64,000 bases of DNA, from the NCBI RefSeq assembly GCF_965363235.1, contig NC_134851.1, positions 25,593,847 to 25,657,846 on the forward strand, given 5' to 3'. The first letter of the stretch is position 1; each line of letters opens with the position of its first letter. Below, one piece after another: positions 12,268 to 44,800 of this stretch. The DNA comes from Mytilus galloprovincialis. Taxonomy: Eukaryota > Mollusca > Bivalvia > Mytilida > Mytilidae. The notes under the pieces are model-generated. The model worked only from the letters and a program-made list of their open reading frames with translations. It did no database searches and had not been told where the DNA came from. Made by a program: the position numbers and the translations under genes.

Positions 12268-15200
12268 GTATGTTTTTAATTTCCCAAAAAATAATTTAAA
12301 CTGTCAATATACTACATTGAAAGAGACATCCTTCTATCAAGTCTTCATTCTGTCCAATTTTTTTTTTTTTTTTTTTGGCATACAAATAGTTTTTGTATGG
12401 CGAGAGAGGCAAGGTAAACAATTTTAAAATTCATTGATGTCTTATAACTTTTGGTTATTGTTTTGGTTCAGTTATTAAACTCTTTGTATGGAGGTTGAAA
12501 CGTCCACTTTTTCATGCTCCATTTTCTTATAACATGTTTTTATGCCCCATTTATGGGCATTATGTTTTCTGGTCTGTGCGTCCGTCTGTTCGTTCGTTCA
12601 TCCATTCGTCCGTCTGTTCCGCTTCAGGTTAAAGTTTTTGGTCGAGGTAGTTTTTGATGAAGTTGAAGTCTAATCAACTTGAAACTTAGTATATATGTTC
12701 TGTATGATATGATCTTTCTAATTTTAATTCCAAATTAGAGATTTAACCCCATTTTCATGGTCCACTGAACATAGAAAATGATAGTGCGGATGGGGCATCC
12801 GTGTACTGGGGACACATTCTTGTTTAAACCTGAAAAAATATCATTATTTTCTACAAAAGATTGAAAGTTCAAAAATATGTAAACAGCAGTTCTTGCAAGA
12901 TATATATAAGATGGTTGATATTATCTTATTTCTTACTGATTTGACTCTGAAAACAAGAAGACATGACTTGTGTAAGTGTAATTATGTCATGCCAAAGGCT
13001 AAGCACAAAAGTACATGTAATATGGGCAAATACATATTGGAATTTTAGTCACTTACAACATATTAAAAGGTATATACAGCATATTAAAAAGGTAAATTAC
13101 CCAAAAAAAGATTACTTGAGATAAATTTTGATAATTATCACATAAATATTTCTTGTACATTTTTAGACTAGTACAACAACATACAACCAACCCTCTGCAC
13201 AGAGGTCATCACAAGGTGAAGTTCATTCAACACATGGGATTTCACCACATCCACAGAATGTTTCTGAACAGTCAAAGTATACACCTCAACAAACAATGAA
13301 CTCTCAGCCAAGTCAGAGTCAAGGGCAATTGTATCAGCAAGGTCAGATGGATCAAGGTCAAAACCAGCAATCTCAAAACTATCAAGGTAGTTTCACTCCT
13401 CAAAGTCAAGGTCAGTTACCACAACAACAGAGTCAACAACAGTGGTTACCAACAGCAGTTTCTGGAACTAATCAATATACCCAATCTGGACAGCAAATTT
13501 CCAATCAACAAGCCCAGGATCAAAGAATTCAACAGCCAATTGCTAGTCAACAACAAACCCCTGGTCAGCCATCAGGACAGAGATTTCAACAGCCAAATGT
13601 TGGTCCACAGCAAACTCTTCAGACACCCCAAAGGTTTCCCCAGGCAAAAATTAGTCAAGAACAACAGGGCCAAAGATTTCAACAACCAAATGTTAGTCAA
13701 CAGCAAAGTCAATATTATGGACAGCAACCTAATAATCAACAAGGTCAAGGTGGTCCTCAAAGTTCAGTGCAATATCCAAATAATCAAGGGCAAAATATTC
13801 GTGTCGCCCCTCAGACTCCACCCCCACAGACACAGTTTCAACAACTAAATGTTAGTCAACAGCAAACTCAATATTATGGACAGCAACCTAATTATCAACA
13901 AGGTCAAGGTGGTCCTCAAAGTTCAGCACAATATCCACCAAATCAAGGTCAAAATACTCCAGTGACCTCTCAGAATGCACCCCAACACAGACAGACTCAA
14001 CAACCAAATGTAGGTCAACAGCAACCTCAATATTATGGACAGCAATCAACTAATCAACAAGGTCAAGGTGGACCTCAAATTTCAGCACAGTATCCATCAA
14101 ATCAAGGGCAAAATACTCAAGTGACCTCTCAGACGACCCCCCAACAGTCAAAGATGTCATCTTCACAACCATCCCAGTTCTCACAGGAGCAAAGAAATCC
14201 ACAACAGTTTGGACAACAGCCAACAAGCCAACAACAAAGTACACCACAACAGTTTGAACAACATCAACAAGGCCAACATCAAAATACATCACAACAGTTT
14301 GGACAACAGGCTTTGCAACAACCATATAATGGATATGGTGGTCAGCATCAGAGCAGTCAACAAACTTCAACATCTGGTAATGGTCCTGCACAGATGAGTC
14401 AGGCCGGTCAAGGTCAAATGCAATATATGTCCACCAATCAGTCTAGTCAAGGGTACTCAAGAGGTCACCCAGTTCAAGGACAACAGACACAACAGCCATC
14501 ATTAAATCAAGGTTATGGCAGTCACCAGGGAAGTCAGTTGTCAGGACAACAGGTTCCACAAACTACCAATATAGCAAGTACAGGACAACAAATACCAAGG
14601 CAACCAGGACCACAATTTCAATATGGTACACAGCCACAAATGTCAAAGACTTCATCCAATTATGGTGGATTTGGCCTACAGCCCCAGATCCAACAATCCA
14701 GTTCATTGCCACAAGGCCCTCAACAAATGCAGGCAATTCCACCAGGAATGCCACAACAGGGTGGATTTATACCACAAGGGCAGACCATGACAACAATGGT
14801 AAATACAATGCCTCAAAATAAAGGAGGCATTCAGCAACAACAAGGTCAGGCCATGACAACAATGGCACAGTCAGGTCCACAACCTATTGGGGGTAGCCAA
14901 CAACAAGGACAGACACAGGTGCTACAACAAAGATATCAATCGCAAGTGCCACAGCCTAGTAATGTACAGCCATCAGTATCCATGAACTCCCAGCAGCAAG
15001 GGTACCCTACAGTACAGCCACCAGTATCCATGAACTCCCAGCAGCAAGGGTACCCTACAGTACAGCAGCAAACAACTAATCAACAGATGCAGGTATTTAT
15101 ATGAAGACATTTAGGGGTAGATCTTGGTTCAGGGACATAACTCTTTAATTTATCAGTTATGCGTTTGTAAAAGTCAAGTTTCGTCAATTCTAAGCTTCTT

Positions 15201-21200: not shown

Positions 21201-24200
21201 TAGATAATGAAAAAAATATCGTCCATTTGGATAAAAATCGGGAATGCATGACAACAGATTAACCCGATATAATCGTTTTTCCAGTGGACGATTCTATTAC
21301 TTTTTTTGACACTTGTGTTAAAACTTATTTTCGTACGACGTTTTTACATTTTTTTTTTTACCAGTTTTCGTGCTTGAAGATCATAATTCACCAAGTTTTC
21401 TAGAATTGTTTAAGAGCTACGCGAATATATTTTTCTTGTTTGTGAAATGACGATTTAATTTCGTCTTTGTCCATGCACCCCTTTTTTTACAGGAAATTAT
21501 TAGAATGTCATGCGATGTTTATAAAATTTCATCAAACTAAAATCTAAGAAATGATGACAAAATAGATTAACAAACATATTGTTAGAAAGGTGAAATATAT
21601 ATTTATTTTGCATATTTTTCTGTCTTGAAAGATTTTTTTTCCCGACCGACCAACCCAACTTTTTCATGAGGAAAATCTGTAAACCAACAAATTAAAAAAA
21701 CGTGGCCTTAGTTTAGTGAAATGCTGAACAGTAGTTAATTTCATGGGTTTTTTTTTCCAGATGATGTATCCAGAGTGTTACTAACATCACATAAAGATGA
21801 TTATATAAATGCTAGCTGGATAAATGTAAGTAGTTATATATATAGTCTAAGATCTTGTTTTATTCACAATAAAAATAAAAATATTTATGCACATTTTAAT
21901 GTGAATGTTTTTTTATTCTGTATTAAGATTTCTAGTTTATCCTTAAATAAATGCTGTTAGCATCTAAAAACAAATATTAAACCCAGCCATGAATTAAAAC
22001 CTCTGTTACTCAAATTCATCTCAACTGTAACATGACGAGGTTCAATGACAAGATGTACAAGTACCAAGTAGTTGGTCTATAGTTATCAAAAGCCTGTCAA
22101 CACTGAAGTTGTGAGACACCAACTCATGACAGTTGTAATCAACTCCTTTCTTGATTGACAAGGATCACCAATATTTGTGTTGAAGATAGGTGGTTCTGTC
22201 CAGGAACTTTGGCCTTCTCCATAGAATAAGAACTGGTCACCACATTCTACATGAGAGTGCTGAATGTGGCATTAATCCCACAGAACAACCAATCAATTAA
22301 TCAATGAAACTTAACGAAACTCTCAAACATACAATGAGTTTCTTTAGCTCCACAGCAAATGCAACAGCAAAACTTACAAAAGACCTGAGTTTTAGATAAG
22401 TCTTTCTCATTCCAAAGTTTTTAGAATTTTTAAATTTTAACATGCTTATTTTCAGGATTTAGCAGAATCATGTCCCAAGTTTATAGCCACACAAGCTCCA
22501 TTGCACTCAACTATGTTTGACTTCTGGTTGATGGTTTATGAGCAGGGGTCAGAGGTCATTGTAATGCTGTCTAGTGAAGTGGAAAACAAAGACACAAAGG
22601 TATGGTAATAATTACAGTTGATTTCAATCAGTGTGTAGAGAAATGTACAGTCCTTGGTTAGCTTGCTTGTTATATGAACCGTGAAGTCATTATTAGGTTA
22701 GGTAAACTACCCTCCTTTAAAAGTAGACTAGTCCAAGAGGTAACCAATCTATGTGTTTGTAAGACTAGACTACTTCGAAAGGAGGATAGTATACCTTACC
22801 TAACGATGACTTCACGGTTCAGCTAACAAGCTAGCTAGCTAACCAAGGATTCTACCTTTCCCTACACACTCAATGAAATCGGCTGTAATTTTAAAATAAC
22901 TAATTGCTTGATCTACTGGGGATTCCTAAATATTTGTGGACTTTGTGGAAACAGGGCTTCCACAAATTTTAATGTTCAATGAATTACAAATTTTCTTGAG
23001 GAATTTTTGCCGACATTTCCAAAAACCAAGAAATTTAATATCCACCAAAATGCAAGTTTTCCTCAATCCACAAATGATAAAAAAAAACTACAGTATACTA
23101 ATTTGAAAATATGGTATGGTATTGACATTTGATAAAAATGTTCAACCATTTTTTGTCTTGCCTGCAACAAAAGTCTCGGAAGGAAAGATTCTGGCTACGG
23201 CAACAGATTCAGCCTCAACAATTGTTAAATTTTCTGAATTTTATGTTCATAGTTGAGACATATCTTTGTGTCAACAGTTCCAATGGGTTAAAGTGGAAAT
23301 GAGCAATTTCTTGATACTTATCTTTTACAAAGAAGCAACATCAATGTTTTTGTGGTGACAGATTGCATTTTTATTTTCAGTAACATGCATATTGATAAAA
23401 TTGAGAATGGAAATGGGGAATGTGTCAAAGAGACAACAACCCGACCATAGAAAAAACAACATATATTTACATCCAAAGACTAACATGATTATATAATTTT
23501 GAATAAGGAAATATCAGAAGGGTATTCAAATCACGGGTTGACGACATACTGACTATGTCATGACAAAAAGACAAAAATATCCAAAATTCCTACAAAAGTC
23601 TACAAAACTTTTAAACATTCAAAATAAAGACTGAGCAACAAGAACACCACCAAAAATCAGGGGTGATTTCATGTGCACTGGAGATATGATGAGTATTTCA
23701 ATGAAGCATAATGCAAAATACGCAACCTCAAACTTACTGTAAACCAACTTATTTTTGCGAGAAGAAAATTAACGCGAATATAAATCGTCGCGAATATGTA
23801 AAACTTAGATCTTTCTTTATTAAAGTATATCCATAAATTAGAAAATCATGATATTAAATAACCGAGAAATAGTTTACAAAGGGTAAAAGGCGAAATAAAG
23901 TATCCGCTAAAATAAGTTGGTTTACAGTACTCTATATAGGTGCTAACTAAAATGCAGTGATTTATCTTTTATATGAAGGTCAATTTACTTTCATTTAATA
24001 AGCTGCATACTTACTTCTCCATGAAAGATACAAATATTATAATTTCTTTTTTTTCAGAAATTTCCTGAATATTGGCCACCAGAGAAGGGCAAATTAACCC
24101 ACCATGGTCCTATAACATTAACTCTCCAGAGCTTGAAGGAGACACAGCTGTGGACAGAGAGAATTATCTACCTACAACACCAGCAGACAAAGACTGGCAG

Positions 24201-27200
24201 GACTATAGTACATCTACAGTATAAAAACTGGCCTGTCAGGTAGGCAAATGTAATATTAACAGTATAAAAACTGGCCTGTCAGGTAGGCAAATGTAATATT
24301 AACAGTATAAAAACTGGCCTGTCAGGTAAGTAAATGTAATATTAACAGTATAAAAACTGGCCTGTCAGGTAAGTAAATGTAATATCTCAAGTATACACTG
24401 TGGGTGGCCTTCCAGGAACATGTTATATGTTCAATGCACAAACTAATCTTTTAGGTGGCAACATATGTATGTTGCATGTACAATACATTATCTGACCTTT
24501 CAGGTGTCGATATCTAACTTGATCAGAAACACAAACTAGTATTCCAGGTAAGGGATATACATGTATATATATTTTACATGTACAATAAACAAACTGACCT
24601 TACAAGTATATAATTATCATGACTATATGGATATGTTACACAAACACTACATGTACAGTCTTTTTTTTTGTGTATTTTATTTTGCATATTGTTGTGTTGG
24701 AATTAAAATATTCAAATGTGTATGCTATCAACTCTAAACTTAATTGTGAGGCTTTGAAAACAAACAAAAATAGTTCATTTCTATTTTGATTACAGTGGAT
24801 TTCCAGAGAAGGTTCCTAGTGTGTTACAGTTTATCAATGAAGTCCATAACTTCTACAGACAGCAGAGAAGTTTACAAAAACCTGTCATGGTTCACTGCAG
24901 GTAAAGAAATAAAATAGAATACTAAACCCTGTCATGGTTTACTGCAGGTATAAAAATAGAATACAAAACCCTGTCATGGTTCACTGCAGGTATAGAAATA
25001 AAAATAGAATACTAAACCCTGTCATGGTTTACTGCAGGTATAGAAATAGAATACAAAACCCTGTCATGGTTCACTGCAGGTATAGAAATAAAAATAGAAT
25101 ACTAAACCCCGTCATGGTTTACTGCAGGTATAGAAATAAAAATAGAATACTAAACCCTGTCATGGTTTACTGCAGGTATATAGAATACTAAACTCTGTCA
25201 TGGTTTACTGCAGGTATAGAAATAAAAATAGAATATAAAACCCTGTCATGGTTTACTGCAGGTATAGAAATAAAAATAGAATATAAAACCCTGTCATGGT
25301 TCACAGCAGGTATAGAATTATAAATAGAATATAAAATCCTGCCATGGTTCACTGCAGGTATAGAATTATAAATAGAATACTAAACCCTGCCATGGTTCAC
25401 TGCAGGTATAGAATTATAAATAGAATACTAAACCCTGCCATGGTTCACTGCAGGTATAGAATTATAAATAGAATACTAAACCCTGCCATGGTTCACTGCA
25501 GGTATAGAATTATAAATAGAATGCTAAACCCTGTCATGGTTTACTGCAGGTATAGAATTATAAATAGAATACTAAACCCTGCCATGGTTCACTGCAGGTA
25601 TAGAATTATGAATAGAAATTATTTACTCACCAGTCATGGACTCTTTACAGTTTTGAAATTTCATACAACATATACAATGAATTATTGTTTTAAGGCAGTA
25701 CAATAATCAGTTAAATACAGTAAGGAAAAATTAGTGTATGCACATGAGAGAGAAAATGATTTTTAGGGGAGATAATCATTACAATTTACACTGACAGCAG
25801 GAATCACAGGCAAGACGAAGCACTTCACAGAACACCTTGATTTTTTGTGTCAGTTTACATTACACTTTTACACTGACTGCATCAATCACTAGCAAAACTA
25901 ATGAATATTTATTAATTTATAAACAAACTTATATTGGCAATTTCAGTAATGGTATAGGTAGAACTGGTACCTTTTTGATGATTTATACTGGAATGCAAGA
26001 GATCGATCACGGTAATGGTATCATCAATGTACAGGCAGTCGGTAAAAAGATGTTACAACAACGTAGATATGTCATCAGAGAGAAAAGTCAACTGAAATTC
26101 TGTTACGGAGCTATTTTGTACCATGCTCAGGATATATTGGCAAAACGTGAGTTCAAAATTCTAGAAAATATGTTTCAACCTTTTGTTAAAGGGTAAATAA
26201 AAAGCTGCACCAAACTAATTATAATCATAGGCTTAACTCTTAACCCATACCTAACCTTAAATAATCTCTAGCCTAAGCCCTAGTCATAAATGAACAATAA
26301 ACAATTCCTTTACTTGTTTTGTCCTATATATAAATACAAAAGATATTTGTTTAAAATGTTAGATGATAAAAACAACATGCTTAAATGAAACAGATCTATA
26401 CTGTTAACATAAACCAAAGTCCTGCTGAGCATTGTTTAGTTCATTCATCCTATTCTTTTATCTGACAATCATTGTAGATCAATTGTAAGAAATTGGTTGT
26501 TATAAATTTATGAAGATGTAACTCGGTAAGTCTTTTCACCACCGCACACCGCCAAACACCACTGAACACCCCAAAAGTTTATTTTTTTGTCTTTTATCGT
26601 TATAAATGTGACTTAAATATAATATTCAAGTTATTAATTCAACAAATCAGAAGATTAAGAGTTCAAATATCTAAAGAAAACATTTTTTTTTTTTTCTATC
26701 TTTTCTATAAAATAGTTGTACCAGTAATAAGAAAAGAGACAAAAAGCAAAATCTAACAGATGAATAAAGATCCAGGATACATTAAGATATTGTTCCTTCT
26801 TTCATGATATAATCTTAGATTATAAATTACCTATGGAATTTGTAGTTGTACCATTTGTCTGCCATAATACATAAATCCACAGTATATGAAATGCATTTTA
26901 TTTATTAATATTGTCCTAAGTATTGTGTCATCTATATTACAGAGGGGATATTGGTTCATAAAGCTTCATTTGGAGACAAGCTTCCTCATCCTGGAGAGAA
27001 ATCTTATCAGTGGACACCCACAGAGGATGTCATTTTTGGAGCATGTAGTATAAATGATCTTAAGAGCAATGTTGAAAAACTTGGATTACATTTAGGAATA
27101 TCAAACAAACATTCTAGTCCAAAGAAAACTGTCATTCCCAAACAGGAGCTCTCCAGTGAGGAGGTGGATAAGCAACAGAAATATTTTTTACCTTCAAAGA

Positions 27201-34061: not shown

Positions 34062-37000
34062 TTACGGTCTTTCACAGATAAAATATATCCTGTGTTCACA
34101 GTAATCATCATTCCAGTTCCAAGCCTGATTCTTTGAAAGTTCTAAACAGTTTTCTCCAAGTCCTTTATGACTGTTATCAGGTTGACCTGGTCCCCAGTTT
34201 GTGTAGGTAAATTTGGTATGAGTTTTAGCCCACATCCATTCAGTCTCCGTCACAATATCGTTTCCACCAAGCCAAAACTTCGGAGGATCATAACTACCTT
34301 AAAATCATAACAGGGGTCGATATTGTCATCTCTTTTATTTATGATGTTCATATTTGATCTTGCTAAAATATTATTCAATTCTTTTGTGTTCTTAGCGTTG
34401 AATGAATGGCAGGCTGTTCAACGGCTTATATTTATTACATTTTAACAAAACAATGACTTTTTTCCCAATGCGGATGCACTCGACTCCAATCTTAATTGAC
34501 TAGGATTGTCAGTTTTCCAATCGAAGGTCGGTGGTTTTCTCCAGGTACTCCGGCTTCATCCACCAATAAAAACTGTCCGCCACAAAATAGCCTAAATGCG
34601 GTGCTTAAAAGTGGCGTTTAATCAACAAAAATCAAAATTAAAATCAATCTAATGCTGATAGTATTGTATTTCAAAACTCATTGGTTTTATAGCATAGTAC
34701 CATGCACTGTTGTTTTATTGTATCTTCAGTTCTTACCTCCCAGGTTTTCTATCATTCCATGTACGAAATGATCCTCTACCACTGTCTCTAAATTTGCCAG
34801 TTCTGATCCCATTGCTCGGCAGTATATCTATGATAATAAAGAGAAAAGTTGGCCGACAAATAAAGAATAGAGAATAATGGAATGCTCAAATATAAAGAAT
34901 ACATAATGCGCAAACAAAAAATAATGAATAGAGAACAATTGACCAATAAAACCTAAAAGAATACAAATCTAGACCTTCACATATAGTATATTAAAAGAGG
35001 CATTCGTAATTGACTGAAAGTGAAAAACACAAATGTACCACAACAGCAGGTGATTTTAGAAACGTGTCTTTATATAACACAAAATAATGTTGTCTTTGTC
35101 AAGATTTCGGACGGCCCTGGATCCAAGTCATTATGTTAAAGTGGCGCAAACTTAATTCTTTATGTAAAATTATCGAAATATTCGTATTAGGCTGAGGACA
35201 ACCCATGCTTTGCACACTAAAGAGGGGGATCATATCGCCACGCCCCCACCTGAATCCGCACCTGCGATTTTATGATAGTGTATGTATGTTTATTAAACAT
35301 GTTATATGAGAGTTCCGGCCTTTTAAAGACATCTATTTTTTTGTATACGTTGATTATTATTGAAACGCTATTGCAGTATACAATGTATAAACTCTATTGC
35401 AACTTGAATTTAATTTAAAAGAGGAGTTTTGTCACATAACAAAACCACACTTTATGAATGTAAACAAAATTCACAGTCCAGCTTGTATATAAGACTAACT
35501 TACACTTGGCCTTTTTTTTAAATTGTTTTGAGCGTCACTGATGGGTCTTTTGTAGACGAAACGCTCGTCTGACGCAAATATAAAATTTCAATCCTATAGT
35601 ATCTATGATGATTTTTTTTATATATATAAAAACAAGAGTTTACCTCTCTGCAAACCCTTATCTAAACCTCTATTATTATTGAAAGAAATATTAATGGTGT
35701 TATTTCTCAGTTTAAGGTAGAATTTAGGTACTCATATATTTATTACTCACGGTTGCTTCAGCCCATGTCGCTAAAGTTCTTATAATTTTGTAACAAGACT
35801 GGTCATGCTTGAGGTAACCATTCGGACATAAACAATGTGCTGAAAATACAATAACAAACTTGAAGAAATCGAGTAGGGAAAATAGAGGAAAGAGTATTTG
35901 TATTACCCTGGTTATTCAGTGACTTATTAACTGGAATACTCGGCCAACTGCTGTTGGTCGTGTAATTTGTCATTACAGAAAAGGAAGGTACAATGAATAT
36001 ATTTTAAGATAAAATAAAAGAAATATGTGTACTTATAGTATATTTAAATATCGAGACAATATATCCTCAAAACTTTTGCCCATAACAACAAGAATTCAAT
36101 TAGTTTTTGCGGGGCATTATGCCACTTTAGTGGATCAACTAAAACTCTTTATCGGATCAGTCGAGAAACTTTAGTGGATCAACTGAAACTCTTTATCGGA
36201 TCAGTCGAGAAACTTTAGTGGATCAACCAAAACTCTTTATCGGATCAGTCGAGAAACTTTAGTGGATCAACTAAAACTCTTTATCGGATCAGTCGAGAAA
36301 CTTTAGTGGATCAACCAAAACTCTTTATCGGACCAGTCGAGAAACTTTAGTGGATCAACCAAAACTCTTTATCGGATCAGTCGAGAAACTTTAGTGGATC
36401 AACCAAAACTCTTTATCGGATCAGTCGAGAAACTTTAGTGGATCAACCAAAACTCTTTATCGGATCAGTCGAGAAACTTTAGTGGATCAACCTAAACTCT
36501 TTATCGGACCAGTCGAGAAACTTTAGTGGATCAACCAAAACTCTTTATCGGATCAGTCGAGAAACTTTAGTGGATCAACCAAAACTCTTTATCGGATCAG
36601 TCGAGAAACTTTAGTGGATCAACCAAAACTCTTTATCGGATCAGTCGAGAAACTTTAGTGGATCAACCAAAACTCTTTATCGGATCAGTCGAGAAACTTT
36701 AGTGGATCAACCAAAACTGTTTATCGGACCAGTCGAGAAACTTTAGTGGATCAACCAAAACTCTTTATCGGACCAGTCGAGAAACTTTAGTGGATCAACC
36801 AAAACTCTTTATCGGATCAGTCGAGAAACTTTAGTGGATCAACTAAAACTCTTTATCGGATCAGTCGAGACACTTTAGTGGATCAACCAAAACTCTTTAT
36901 CGGATCAGTCGAGAAACTTTAGTGGATCAACTAAAACTCTTTATCGGATCAGTCGAGAAACTTTAGTGGATCAACTAAAACTCTTTATCGGATCAGTCGA

Positions 37001-37919
37001 GAAACTTTAGTGGATCAACTAAAACTCTTTATCGGATCAGTCGAGACACTTTAGTGGATCAACCAAAACTCTTTATCGGATCAGTCGAAAAACTTTAGTG
37101 GATCAACTAAAACTCTTTATCGGATCAGTCGAGACACTTTAGTGGATCAACCAAAACTCTTTATCGGATCAGTCGAGAAACTTTAGTGGATCAACTAAAA
37201 CTCTTTATCGGATCAGTCGAGACACTTTAGTGGATCAACCAAAACTCTTTATCGGATCAGTCGAGAAACTTTAGTGGATCAACTAAAACTCTTTATCAGA
37301 TCAGTCGAGAAACTTTAGTGGATCAACTAAAACTCTTTATCAGATCAGTCGAGACACTTTAGTGGATCAACTAAAACTCTTTATCAGATCAGTCGAGACA
37401 CTTTAGTGGATCAACCAAAACTCTTTATCGGATCAGTCGAAACACTTTACAAATGGTTACTTTATAACTGCACATGAAAGTTACAAAGATTTTGGTAAAA
37501 CTTGGTCTTGTATATCATTTAGTTTGGTTGGTCAGTCGGCTGAGCGAAAAGGCTTCCGGTAAAAAAAAAAGATATTCAAGTCCCCAATCAGTGTTGAACC
37601 TGAATTTTAAACTTTGCACAATGTTTTTATATACATTGATTATTTATTGTTGATCCCTTAACGTCCAATGGAAATTATTTCATGCACTTACATAATAATA
37701 TATACATTGAAGATGTTCACTCCACTTTGTGTACATATTTCGACAGTACGTTTTTGACGATTTGTCTATTTTAAAACAAATTAATTTACTCACGGAGATA
37801 AAGATTGCAGGTCCTTATAAAAAATGTACATATACAAAGAAAATGTCAGTAAAATATATTATCTTACCATAATTTATCAGAAACTGTGCAAATAAAGCAG
37901 CTTTAACTATAGTAAACAT
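34062..37919 (-). CDS. Secreted C-type lectin 1 (QPD type), four exons
   Basis: Minus-strand exons 37868-37919, 35751-35839, 34737-34827 and 34062-34297 keep phase (1, 0, 1) and encode 155 residues. Signal peptide MFTIVKAALFAQFLINYA, then CLCPNGYLKHDQSC (the extra N-terminal Cys pair of long-form CTLDs), AMGSELANLE, FWLGGND, GQPD, ENCLEL, WNWNDDYC and YFICERP. Family knowledge: QPD with WND forms the Ca2+-dependent site usually selective for galactose-type sugars. Likely a soluble immune or mucus lectin. It is a tandem paralog of the gene at 41827-45551; the loop after QPDN is three residues longer (SHKGLGENC against GQGENC). The first intron holds the 44-bp satellite. Confidence 0.9.
34480..34640 (+). 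mobile_element. SINE tail fragment
   Basis: GCACTCGACTCCAATCTTAA, TTGACTAGGATTGTCAGTTT, ACTCCGGCTTCATCCACCAA and AAAGTGGCGTTTAATCAAC match the body of the SINE at 51580 onward. The tRNA-like head is missing. Lies in the last intron of lectin 1. Confidence 0.7.
35505..35625 (-). repeat. 365-bp mussel repeat fragment (reverse)
   Basis: GAGCGTCACTGATGGGTCTT, TTGTAGACGAAACGCTCGTC and ATTTCAATCCT...ATCTATGATG are the reverse complement of the unit at 9130-9220. Confidence 0.75.
36122..37447. repeat. 44-bp satellite array, ~30 copies
   Basis: The unit is GAAACTTTAGTGGATCAACC plus AAAACTCTTTATCGGATCAG plus TCGA, very homogeneous. Variants (CCAAAAC/CTAAAAC, GAAACT/GACACT) are random on the left, but from ~36866 they alternate, giving an 88-bp higher-order dimer. 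It lies in the first intron of lectin 1. Confidence 0.95.
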
Positions 37920-40029: not shown

Positions 40030-40412
40030 ATTTTCCTTGGAGTTGCTGACATGGAACCGATACTATTTACGATGTTCCTGGCTTGGCACAGATACTATTT
40101 AGGAGTTTCGTAACTTAAGACAAATACTATTTAGGAGGTTTCTGACTTGGGGCACGTACCTTTTAGGAGGTTCCTGACTTGGGACAGATACTATTTAGAA
40201 GTTTCATGACTTGGGACAGACACTATTTACGAGGTTCTTTACTTGTGAAAGATACTATTTTGGAGGTTTCAATCTTGTGACAGATACTATTTAGGAGTTT
40301 CCTGACTTGGGACAGATACTTTTTAGGAAGTTTCTGACATGGAACAATTACTATTTAGGAAGTTCCTGACATGAAACAACTACTATTTAGGAAGTTCCTG
40401 ACATGGTACAGG
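40030..40412 (+). repeat. ~32-bp minisatellite, ~12 degenerate copies
   Basis: The unit is CTGACTTGGGACAGATACTA followed by TTTAGGAGGTTC, with variants such as GACATGGAACAATTACTATT. Confidence 0.85.
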
Positions 40413-41094
40413 TACATGAAAATGGGGCTGAGTAAACTCATTCTATATATTTGAAACAATTCAAAGTAGCATTTAAACAAAAGTGCATATTAGAACATGG
40501 CCACACGTTGACCTATTGTTACTTATTCACGTCATTTGATCTTTAGTTGTTAAATGTCTCATTCGTAATCTTAACTCATCTCCTTAATTTATATAAAATA
40601 AAACCCAATGCATAAAAGAACTCTAACTTAAAATAACAATATTAAAGATAACAAAACATGATCTATAACATATAATATAAAAATCATTATAACAAATTAT
40701 ATAACTGTGCACAGTTCTGAAAGTTTATTTAGGATTTATTTGTTATTTGATGTAATTTGTCAATTATCCAATGATTTCACCACCGTCTATTTCTTCAGAT
40801 CTGCAAAAAAAAAAGTTCAAGAATTTATGTTGTTCAACTTAAAGGTATCGGCATCACAATTAAAAAAAAAATGCACGGTGTATGAAGTCATACCGTTTAT
40901 TTGTCAATTTGTGAATCTATCCTTCCATCCCACATTGGGTACCCCTTTTTCAGTTTTCAATTTAAAAATGCATAATATTACACATGTTTTTAGTACATAT
41001 AATAACGATGATCATATGCATGCTATCATGATTTGGGGTTTCTTTAGATTTCCATAAATGACAAATTGTTGAACTTTGATCAATCCTGAATGCA
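40413..41094. other. Intergenic, no gene seen
   Basis: AT-rich. Its 40740-41040 part resembles 31945-32280 (CACCGTCTATTTCTTCAGATCT-like and CATCCCACATTGGGTAC words), so it is probably another dispersed repeat. Confidence 0.45.
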
Positions 41095-41826: not shown

Positions 41827-44800
41827 TTACGGTTTTTCACAGATAAAATATTTTCTGTGTTCACAGGTTTCATCATTCCAGTTCCAACCCACATTCTTTG
41901 AAAGTTCTAAGCAATTTTCTCCTTGTCCGTTGTCAGGTTGACCTGGTGCCCAGTTTGTGTAGGTAAATTTTGTATGAGTTTTAGCCCACATCCATTCACT
42001 CTCCGTTACAATATCATTTCCACCAAGCCAAAACTTGGGTGGATCATAACTACCTGTAAGTTATAACAAGGTTTTGCATTATCACCTCTTTTGTTTATTT
42101 TGTACATGAGTTTTAACCCACATCCATTCACGCTGAGTTACAAACAATATCGTTCCCACTGAGCAAAATTTTTGGAGGATTTTAGCTACCTGCAAGTTAT
42201 AACAAGGAGCGATATTAGCATCGCTTTTGTTTATTTCTTTATAAATGATCTAGCTAGTTTTATATTAAAGTATTTGATTTCTTAACATGGAAGGCATGAG
42301 AGAATTTTCAAAAGTTTATATTGATACGTTTTTACATATGCCTATACGTTTTTACATATATGCTGATATATACATTGGTTGTTCATATCTACTTGATTTT
42401 ATATAATTATAGGACCATAGTGAGTGCTGCAGCTTGTTTGATTGCATCTTATTCTTTTCTTTTTTTTCTCTTTCGGAGTGCCTGAGATCACACCTGTGAC
42501 CTAGTTTTGGGGAGGGTACGTGTTACGTGTACTATAGTTTGTATGCTTGTCCCATTCCTTTTTTAGCCATGGTTTATTTTCGACTTATGAGTTTGAATAT
42601 CACTCGGTATCATTCACCTCTTTTTGGCAGCTTGTTTTAATGCATTTCTTACCTCCCAGGTTTTGTAACATTCCATGTACGAAATGATCCTCTACCGCTG
42701 TCTCTAGATTTGCCAGTTCTGATCCCATTGCTCTGCAGTATATCTATTGTAATTTAAACAAACAGAACAATTCTAGGGTATTGAAAGTGTAAGTCGCTCA
42801 ATTATATTACGCTTATCATTAATTAAACGTTGATGTACGTGATACATATCTTATCTCAAACGGCATTTAAATTTAAAGAGAAGTTTTCTTATCACTTGAT
42901 CAAATAAACATTTTATAAAAAAAAGTTAATGCAAAAAAGGGTGTCCATCATGTTTTCCAAACTTATTAAAATAAATCAATTGAACTTGTATCACTCTAAG
43001 TAGACATGGAATATGGTGTTTCTACAGCTAGAAGTAGATTTTAGTTACTCATATATGCGTTACTCACGGTTGCTTCAGCCCATGTCGCAAATGTTCTTAT
43101 CATTTTGTAACAAGACTCGTCATGTTTCAGGTAACCATTTGGACATAGACAATATGCTAAAAATATATTAACAAACTGACGAAAGCAATAATGGAACAAT
43201 TAATGAAATAAGTGCTGCATGCTTATATATTCGAATTCTCAGTGCTGTTTACCTATTATTTCTATTTGAGAGTGTGGTTTGTCAGTACCTTTAAATTTTC
43301 ATTAAGAGTGTTGTTTCTCAGTACATTTAAATTGACAGTGTTGCTTGCTTATAACTTCTAGTTGATAGTGTTGTTTGCCTTTAAGGGAGAGGGCATACGT
43401 TACAGTTACAGGGGAGGTAATGAAGTTGCTAACGTAACATGTTATTTTCGCGACGTCAAACTGTGACATATCGGGAAAAGATGCATTTTTCGACTGATTT
43501 TTATCATTCAAATTGATTTAATTTGAAAACGAGTGCATGTACCACTTTTTTTAAAACGAAATTTTGTTTCATTTTGCAGGGAGATTATGTGGACCAAATT
43601 TGATAAAACTGTAACTAGTGCAATTTTTTTAATTTTGATAAATATACAGTAAAAAATACGTTTATTTCTCAATTCATGACATTTGATAAATATATATTTC
43701 TGAATGAAAAATGCATAAATTTTTATGATACTTATAAAATACAGAAATTACAAATTATTTAACAAAAACCAATTTGTGTTTATCTTTTAAAACAAAAAAT
43801 GTATGGCTTTCTTTCGAAGGGAAAAAATACGGCCACAAATCCGAATTTTGAGCAAATATACACAATTTTGACCTCATTTAACTCAAAAAGTAGCAGATGA
43901 AGGTATATTTTTTATTACATATTTGATTTAATCAGGCAAAAACTAGCCTATATGGAAATTTTCGTCAAACTGTAAATACGGGATCAAAACTGTATCGTAT
44001 GCCCTTAACTGCCAGTTTATGGTGTTGTTTGTCTATCACTACCAGTTGATAGTGTTGTTTTCATATCACTGCCAGTTGATAGTGTTGTTTGCCTATCACT
44101 GCCAGTTGATAGTGTTGTTTGTCTATCACTACCAGTTGATAGTGTTGTTTGCTTTAAACTTTTAATTGATAATGTTTTCATATCACTGCCAGTTGATAGT
44201 GTTGTTTTCATATCACTGCCAGTTGATAGTGTTGTTTGCCTATCACTGCCAGTTGATAGTGTTGTTTGCTTTAAACTTTTAATTGATAATGTTTTCATAT
44301 CACTGCCAGTTGATAGTGTTGTTTGCCTATCACTGCCAGTTGATAGTGTTGTTTTCCTATCACTGCCAGTTGATAGTGTTGTTTGCCTATCACTGCCAGT
44401 TGATAGTGTTGTTTGCCTATCACTGCCAGTTGATAGTGTTATTTGCTTTTAACTTTTAGTTGATAGTGTTGTTTTCCTATTACTGCCAGTTGATAGTGTT
44501 GTTTGCTTATAATATTTAGTTGATAAAGTTGTTTTCTTATAACTGCCATAAGTTTTAGTTGATAGTGTCGTTTGCCTATCACTACCAGTTGATAATGTTG
44601 TTTGTTTATAAGCTTAAGTTGATAGTGTTATTTTCCTATAACTGCCGATTGGTGATATTGTTGGCCTATAACTTTTAGTTGATAATGTTGTTTGCTTTTA
44701 ACTTTTAGTTGTCCTCTTCTATCGAAGATACATACATGCATTAGCAAAATATCAATAGAACTGCTCTTTAGTTGATTATTTAAATAGATCAACAGCTAAT

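Follow-up and report, generated by a model that had tools for sequence, protein, structure and literature searches.

A genuine minisatellite across a splice donor of a tyrosine-phosphatase gene in Mytilus galloprovincialis

The window, by which we mean the whole stretch of 64,000 nucleotides analysed, contains a genuine splice-donor minisatellite: a unit composed of the last 28 bases of a phosphatase exon and about 20 bases of the following intron, repeated in tandem with exon end and donor GT present in 16/16 units (Table 1). We consider it highly probable that this array was born across the donor of an intron that already existed, its copies lying harmlessly within that intron; judged from the sequence, it is best explained by an ordinary tandem duplication that happened to straddle the donor and would leave the protein unharmed. 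The anatomy of the array, the comparison of two copies of the gene, the age of the intron, and a second, fresh array with decayed copies at the neighbouring donor all support this directly; that similar arrays occur at other genes is demonstrated in part.

Most units are 48 bp in length, with successive donor GTs lying 47, 42, 48, 42, 48, 48 and 38 bases apart, followed by eight intervals of 48. All copies are on the intron side of the exon end, the reading frame running to 24900 and resuming at 25947. A first-pass annotation of this DNA had described a roughly sixteen-fold tandem amplification of exon end and donor, and sixteen copies are indeed found, the exon share being 28 bases rather than the ~20 proposed; its statement that every unit carries CAG/GT (the slash marking the exon end), and hence both an AG and a GT, is borne out at all 16 sites, and the first, exon-proximal copy is intact as it had described. 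The coding changes it reported amongst the copies were likewise recovered: CAC has become TAC in 7/15 extra units and TGC has become AGC in 1/15. The acceptor was placed by it at 25946, which is where the AG ends, so the next exon is to be counted from 25947 onward.

Table 1. Exons, intron and donor-spanning repeats of the phosphatase gene (positions in the window)
Feature	Position	Strand	Evidence or remark
Preceding coding exon, ending ...YKNWPV-AG/	24058..24239	+	ORF; PF00102 match of joined exons
43-bp donor-spanning array, 4 copies, 98% matches	24216..24385	+	Tandem Repeats Finder; single copy in duplicate L002
Four decayed older copies of the 43-bp exon-end/donor unit	24427-24469, 24475-24517, 24533-24570, 24576-24608	+	Alignment of the unit
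Coding exon, ending ...KPVMVHC-AG/	24796..24900	+	ORF; PF00102 match of joined exons; identical in duplicate L002
48-bp donor-spanning minisatellite, 16 copies	24873..25617	+	Tandem Repeats Finder (period 48, 16.0 copies, score 1028); CAGGT spacing
GT of the CAGGT sites, n=16	24901, 24948, 24990, 25038, 25080, 25128, 25176, 25214, 25262, 25310, 25358, 25406, 25454, 25502, 25550, 25598		
Phase-2 intron, 1046 nt; 16 potential donors (24901 exon-proximal, 15 inner), acceptor AG 25945-25946	24901..25946	+	
Next coding exon, (S)NGIGRTGTF...	25947..26146	+	ORF; joined-exon match; own donor GTGAGT from 26147

When joined, the three exons match PF00102 at E=1.1e-35, and their best relatives with a solved structure are receptor phosphatases. 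The WPD loop of the domain reads WPV, a change that we take, from general phosphatase chemistry, to suggest that the enzyme has little or no activity. A near copy of the gene (copy A, L002) is found ~40 kb upstream of the window array, at C14:25578867. By its predicted exons copy A appears to be PTPN23/HD-PTP-like, because BRO1 exons lie upstream of its phosphatase exons and the one tested matches PTPN23: there are 13 BRO1 matches in the genome, the five on contig C14 all being upstream of the phosphatase exons of this copy (C14:25539527-25547467), and one of these exons, compared with the PDB, returned PTPN23 for 3/3 distinct sequences at E<=0.1. The window copy has the PTP domain and a P/Q-rich part, and the BRO1 search of the genome matched no BRO1 exon belonging to it; as far as the exon search sees, it appears to be a partial PTPN23/HD-PTP-like copy consisting of these two parts. 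The P/Q-rich long open frame (13401-15101) itself contains in-frame repeats (159 bp x3, 45 bp and 48 bp), and is followed by 32-bp and 44-bp arrays that are probably intronic.

The matching block between the two copies runs from about window position -32007 onto window 10428 onward, with large gaps; over the gene most pieces are 93-98% identical and one is 90%, and identity beyond window 31800 is 85-95%. Compared with upstream C14, window 10428-49471 has the appearance of a large partial segmental duplication, or second haplotype, of the 3' half of HD-PTP. Copy A also has 16 donors in its 48-bp array, with the middle rearranged relative to the window: the extra units follow each other in the order A B C D E C F G H I J J J K J here, and A L C C M N G O H I J J J P J in the duplicate. 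Both copies begin with an identical unit next to the exon and share their last units (H I J J J. J), the differences in the middle comprising unit order plus 6- and 10-base deletions. The earlier suggestion that the array may be length-variable is partly supported: the middle is rearranged and the neighbouring array has 4 copies against 1, but the 48-bp array counts 16 donors in both copies. We think it probable that this array is older than the split of the two gene copies and was reshuffled afterwards. Gene conversion between the copies may also have carried it across, because the introns beside the arrays diverge less (0.6-0.7%) than the upstream intron (5.6%); the four intron stretches compared differ by 0.6, 0.7, 1.5 and 5.6%. 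Coding differences between copy A and the window amount to five synonymous and no nonsynonymous changes in 218 codons, so the exons remained constrained in spite of the arrays.

The donor of the preceding exon (24058..24239) has apparently undergone amplification on two or more occasions, because a fresh, four-copy 43-bp array is found there with decayed copies of the same unit beyond it. Together the five best alignments of the unit (the four decayed copies plus a short alignment at 24649-24659) score 130; first-order Markov introns, of which 500 were generated, give 87 +/- 7, and 0/500 reach as high a value; the score of the single best alignment was equalled by 1/500. A possible fifth decayed copy (24405-24426) is weak, ranking sixth and lying outside the five-alignment sum. 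This donor thus shows amplification at two ages, with four fresh copies, against one in the duplicate, in addition to the decayed ones, although the single copy in copy A could be a contraction and not the ancestral state.

In the explanation that we favour, a local tandem duplication, caused by unequal exchange or by presumed replication slippage, would have taken the last 28 exon bases together with the first ~20 of the already existing intron. The copies beyond the exon-proximal donor would be intronic because that donor continued in use; freed of coding constraint, they could then have expanded to 16. Later slippage or conversion would reshuffle the middle of the array, with both ends staying common to the two gene copies, and the inner AG/GT sites would have come along with the unit rather than belonging to a new intron. 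We infer that donor 24901 is the one used, and that the array has little effect on expression.

What an inner donor would cost can be read from the frame. Because the intron is in phase 2, a transcript passing donor 24901 reads AGG TAA, giving ...VHCR-stop with the stop one base past the donor; read-through of the 43-bp array likewise gives AGG TAG, and a stop precedes the second donor in 10/11 arrays checked, the exception (L060) being a probable coding repeat. It is conceivable, if improbable, that the array works as a set of functional decoys, its length tuning the use of inner donors and each such use leading to VHCR-stop and nonsense-mediated decay. The 15 inner donors all have their GT, with the stop one base after the first donor; CAG/GT is kept in 30/30 inner copies over the two genes, with substitutions in 14/48 unit columns; and a 31-bp VNTR in human CBS is tied to reduced CBS activity in the title of Lievers et al. 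2001. Young arrays, however, keep such sites without selection, 34/48 columns being unsubstituted anyway, and a stop before the second donor is often to be expected by chance in AT-rich introns. Given the retention of CAG/GT, some role of the inner sites is conceivable.

Calculated pairing with the U1 end is slightly better for the first donor of the 48-bp array than for the inner ones (-8.3 vs -7.2 kcal/mol); in the 43-bp array, 2/3 inner copies (24326 and 24369), which read GTAAGT, are predicted to be much stronger than the first, at 24240 (-13.7 vs -10.7 kcal/mol). Greater strength was rejected as the general reason for use of the first donor, because the first is the strongest only in the 48-bp array and in the duplicate of that array. 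Among the other 9/11 arrays compared, each has inner donors as strong as the first or stronger, a tally biased by the choice of 8 of those 9 arrays for at least three exact CAGGTAAG words, i.e. for strong inner donors. If the genes are expressed, the choice of donor would have to follow position, not strength. A genome search for spliced retrocopies, as a record of junction use, found none; all six of its matches are genomic exons belonging to the two copies.

We hold it very improbable that the array is an assembly artefact or belongs to a mis-joined second haplotype. The duplicate, mostly 93-98% alike over the gene, falls within the similarity conceivable for two alleles in a diverse animal; against this, the 184 kb spanning both copies contain no N, the unit order differs from one copy to the other, and even with L002 an allele the array would exist in both haplotypes. 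A single-unit artefact appears unlikely, given that the duplicate is assembled with a separate array, also of 16 donors but of different internal order. A dispersed satellite or transposon unit was also rejected: in the 1.38-Gb genome (331 contigs) the array matched two places, both copies of the same phosphatase gene, a number to be taken as a lower bound in a search that skipped very common words and scored the best candidates alone. An unrelated satellite with the same unit, which the first-pass annotation had named as one finding that would overturn its account, did not appear in this search, the two matches lying in the window and the duplicate gene.

The annotation's larger suggestion, that this may be an arrested example of a route to new introns through tandem duplication across AGGT sites, is not supported, and we give next to no credence to arrested or ongoing intron gain of this kind (Rogers model). 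Every unit does carry AG/GT, so that joining the GT of one to the AG of another restores the same junction, and the tandem copies with AG/GT in each unit are like those of the documented cases, namely ATP2A1 and the 24-bp AGGT arrays of fission yeast (the portions consulted of PMC3443670 and PMC4974935). In those cases, however, an exonic segment yields a new intron, whereas here the segment spans the donor of an old one, and the array is wholly intronic. The intron-site comparison was made amongst paralogues within the genome. Another tyrosine-phosphatase gene (L041) has an exon ending at the same codon and phase (IVHC-AG/GTAAGG), two further exons start at the same VHC/S site and phase (L042, tttcAG/TGCTGGA; L043, tttccAG/TGCTGGA), and 27 of about 150 listed PF00102 rows, counted by hand, end at profile position 177 or 178. 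Because paralogous phosphatases share its site and phase, the phase-2 VHC/S intron is, on this comparison, old, and the 48-bp array would lie wholly inside it; AGGT intron gain was thus rejected as the origin of this intron, the site being common to L041, L042 and L043. No more credible is recursive splicing of the intron with the inner AG/GT sites as ratchet points: a branch-site-like TACTAAA stands ~20 nt before CAG/GT in 9/15 extra units, but inspection by eye reveals no clear pyrimidine tract, and units of 38-48 nt lie in an intron of only 1046 nt.

By analogy, the 48-bp array would be the same kind of object as the human CBS 31-bp VNTR, in another animal gene. The latter is named c.1444_1467+7(16_21), with 16-21 copies, in the relevant section of PMC2630376, and is placed at exon 13-intron 13 in a table of PMC1395315. 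In both, the unit runs from the end of the exon across the donor (24 exon and 7 intron bases in CBS, by its name). The human VNTR differs in being a 31-bp, vertebrate array with measured population variation, whereas here two genomic copies are compared; a further difference is that, in the mussel gene, two neighbouring donors are hit, and other genes of this genome seem to carry arrays of a similar sort. CBS transcripts reportedly use the inner repeat donors. The human 844_845ins68 allele of CBS is also a duplication across a splice junction, of which, according to a section of PMC2630376, splicing favours one copy and removes the other; unlike the 48-bp array, it is a single 68-bp duplication, at the intron 7/exon 8 junction. 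In the literature searched, which had most subscription journals outside it, we found no report of donor-spanning arrays as a genome-wide class, and no junction-spanning units are described in the parts consulted of studies on C. elegans minisatellites and splicing (PMC4039745) and on earthworm metallothionein introns (PMC12783039).

Across the genome, three CAGGTAAG words spaced 12-42 bases apart occur 316 times. We examined 15 such arrays, 13 of them grouped by eye among the matches listed on C1 and C2 and two listed on C3, and sorted them by eye on ORFs, neither blind nor with control arrays. So sorted, 7/15 start at probable coding exon ends (L053, L055, L056, L059, L062, L064, L065); the remaining eight comprise L060, the ambiguous L061, and six without a coding end (L054, L057, L058, L063, L066, L067). 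L060 was dropped from the exon-end arrays because its 36-bp unit stays open for 650 nt, and is more likely a 12-residue coding repeat. The exon of L053 is a calcium-channel IQ exon (PF08763, E=1.4e-8, above cut-off), that of L059 is HSP70-like (PF00012, E=4.3e-4, 19.1 bits, just under the cut-off of 20.6) and that of L056 is mannosidase-like (PDB E=0.2, weak). Pfam at E<=1 gave no fitting family for 5/7 exon-end arrays (L055, L056, L062, L064, L065), and the exon ends of L055, L062, L064 and L065 rest on the ORF. The 48-bp array is thus probably not a one-off in this genome.

A comparison with two backward control words, over C1 and C2 to 102.96 Mb, gave 12 arrays for CAGGTAAG and 10 for AAGGTAAG (30,138 and 45,766 words genome-wide), against 8 for GAATGGAC and 4 for GAATGGAA (49,536 and 103,947 words), 3/8 GAATGGAC loci being one dispersed family. 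Donor words are therefore 3.7-fold over the two control words in arrays (Fisher p=0.0002), a ratio that takes words per span as a genome fraction and depends on arrays grouped by eye and on these two control words only; the pairs taken alone give 2.5-fold (p=0.06) for CAGGTAAG/GAATGGAC and 5.7-fold (p=0.002) for AAGGTAAG/GAATGGAA. Raw occurrences show no excess for the first pair (316 vs 351) and stand at 493 vs 139 for the second. In the 184 kb we counted 21 minisatellites, whose founding units make up 0.42% of bases, or, by subtraction, 0.34% without the three focal arrays; in the phosphatase/BRO1 family loci the share is 0.70%. Arrays were observed at 0.23% of CAGGTAAG words and 0.13% of AAGGTAAG words. 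A special attraction of donors would not be required for such arrays, because this minisatellite density (0.34-0.70% of bases in a founding unit) suffices. Outside HD-PTP, no donor-spanning array was found in 34 phosphatase/BRO1 exon loci, 28 of them with a candidate donor; none of these scored like a copy, the best reaching 33 out of a possible 66 (L027). An acceptor-spanning duplication was found in 1/34: in L023, at ~1440-1560, it covers the start of a tyrosine-phosphatase exon (ECEPHTYIATQGPM), the extra copy being intronic.

We regard as tentative, and on balance doubtful, the wider proposal that splice donors are a preferred minisatellite birthplace in this genome, such that dozens to hundreds of genes would have introns opening with ladders of up to ~30 near-identical donors, and their expression would rely on a strict exon-proximal rule whatever the strength of the rest. 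Tandem donor arrays offer natural experiments on the choice of a 5' splice site among equal or better neighbours, and the several candidates in this one genome are likely to provide a series of such tests. Within a single gene we find long, fresh and decayed arrays at two adjacent donors, with a near-identical duplicate for comparison; such arrays show a simple way for introns to grow from their edges with the exon unharmed.

Some further repeats were seen near exon borders and elsewhere. On the reverse strand of L053 (C1:585800-588200), a 57 bp x10 array (328-897) ends at the acceptor of the IQ exon and a 41 bp x6 array (996-1226) starts at the donor of the same exon. In copy A, a 76-bp x10 array (L049, 1666-2434) begins seven bases after a BRO1-exon donor and contains no exon sequence. 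The window has large minisatellites at 36124-37449 (44 bp x30), 40042-40415 (32 bp x12) and 44008-44695 (30 bp x23), and, on its minus strand at 34062-34298, an open frame whose motif we take to be like that of a C-type lectin domain exon.
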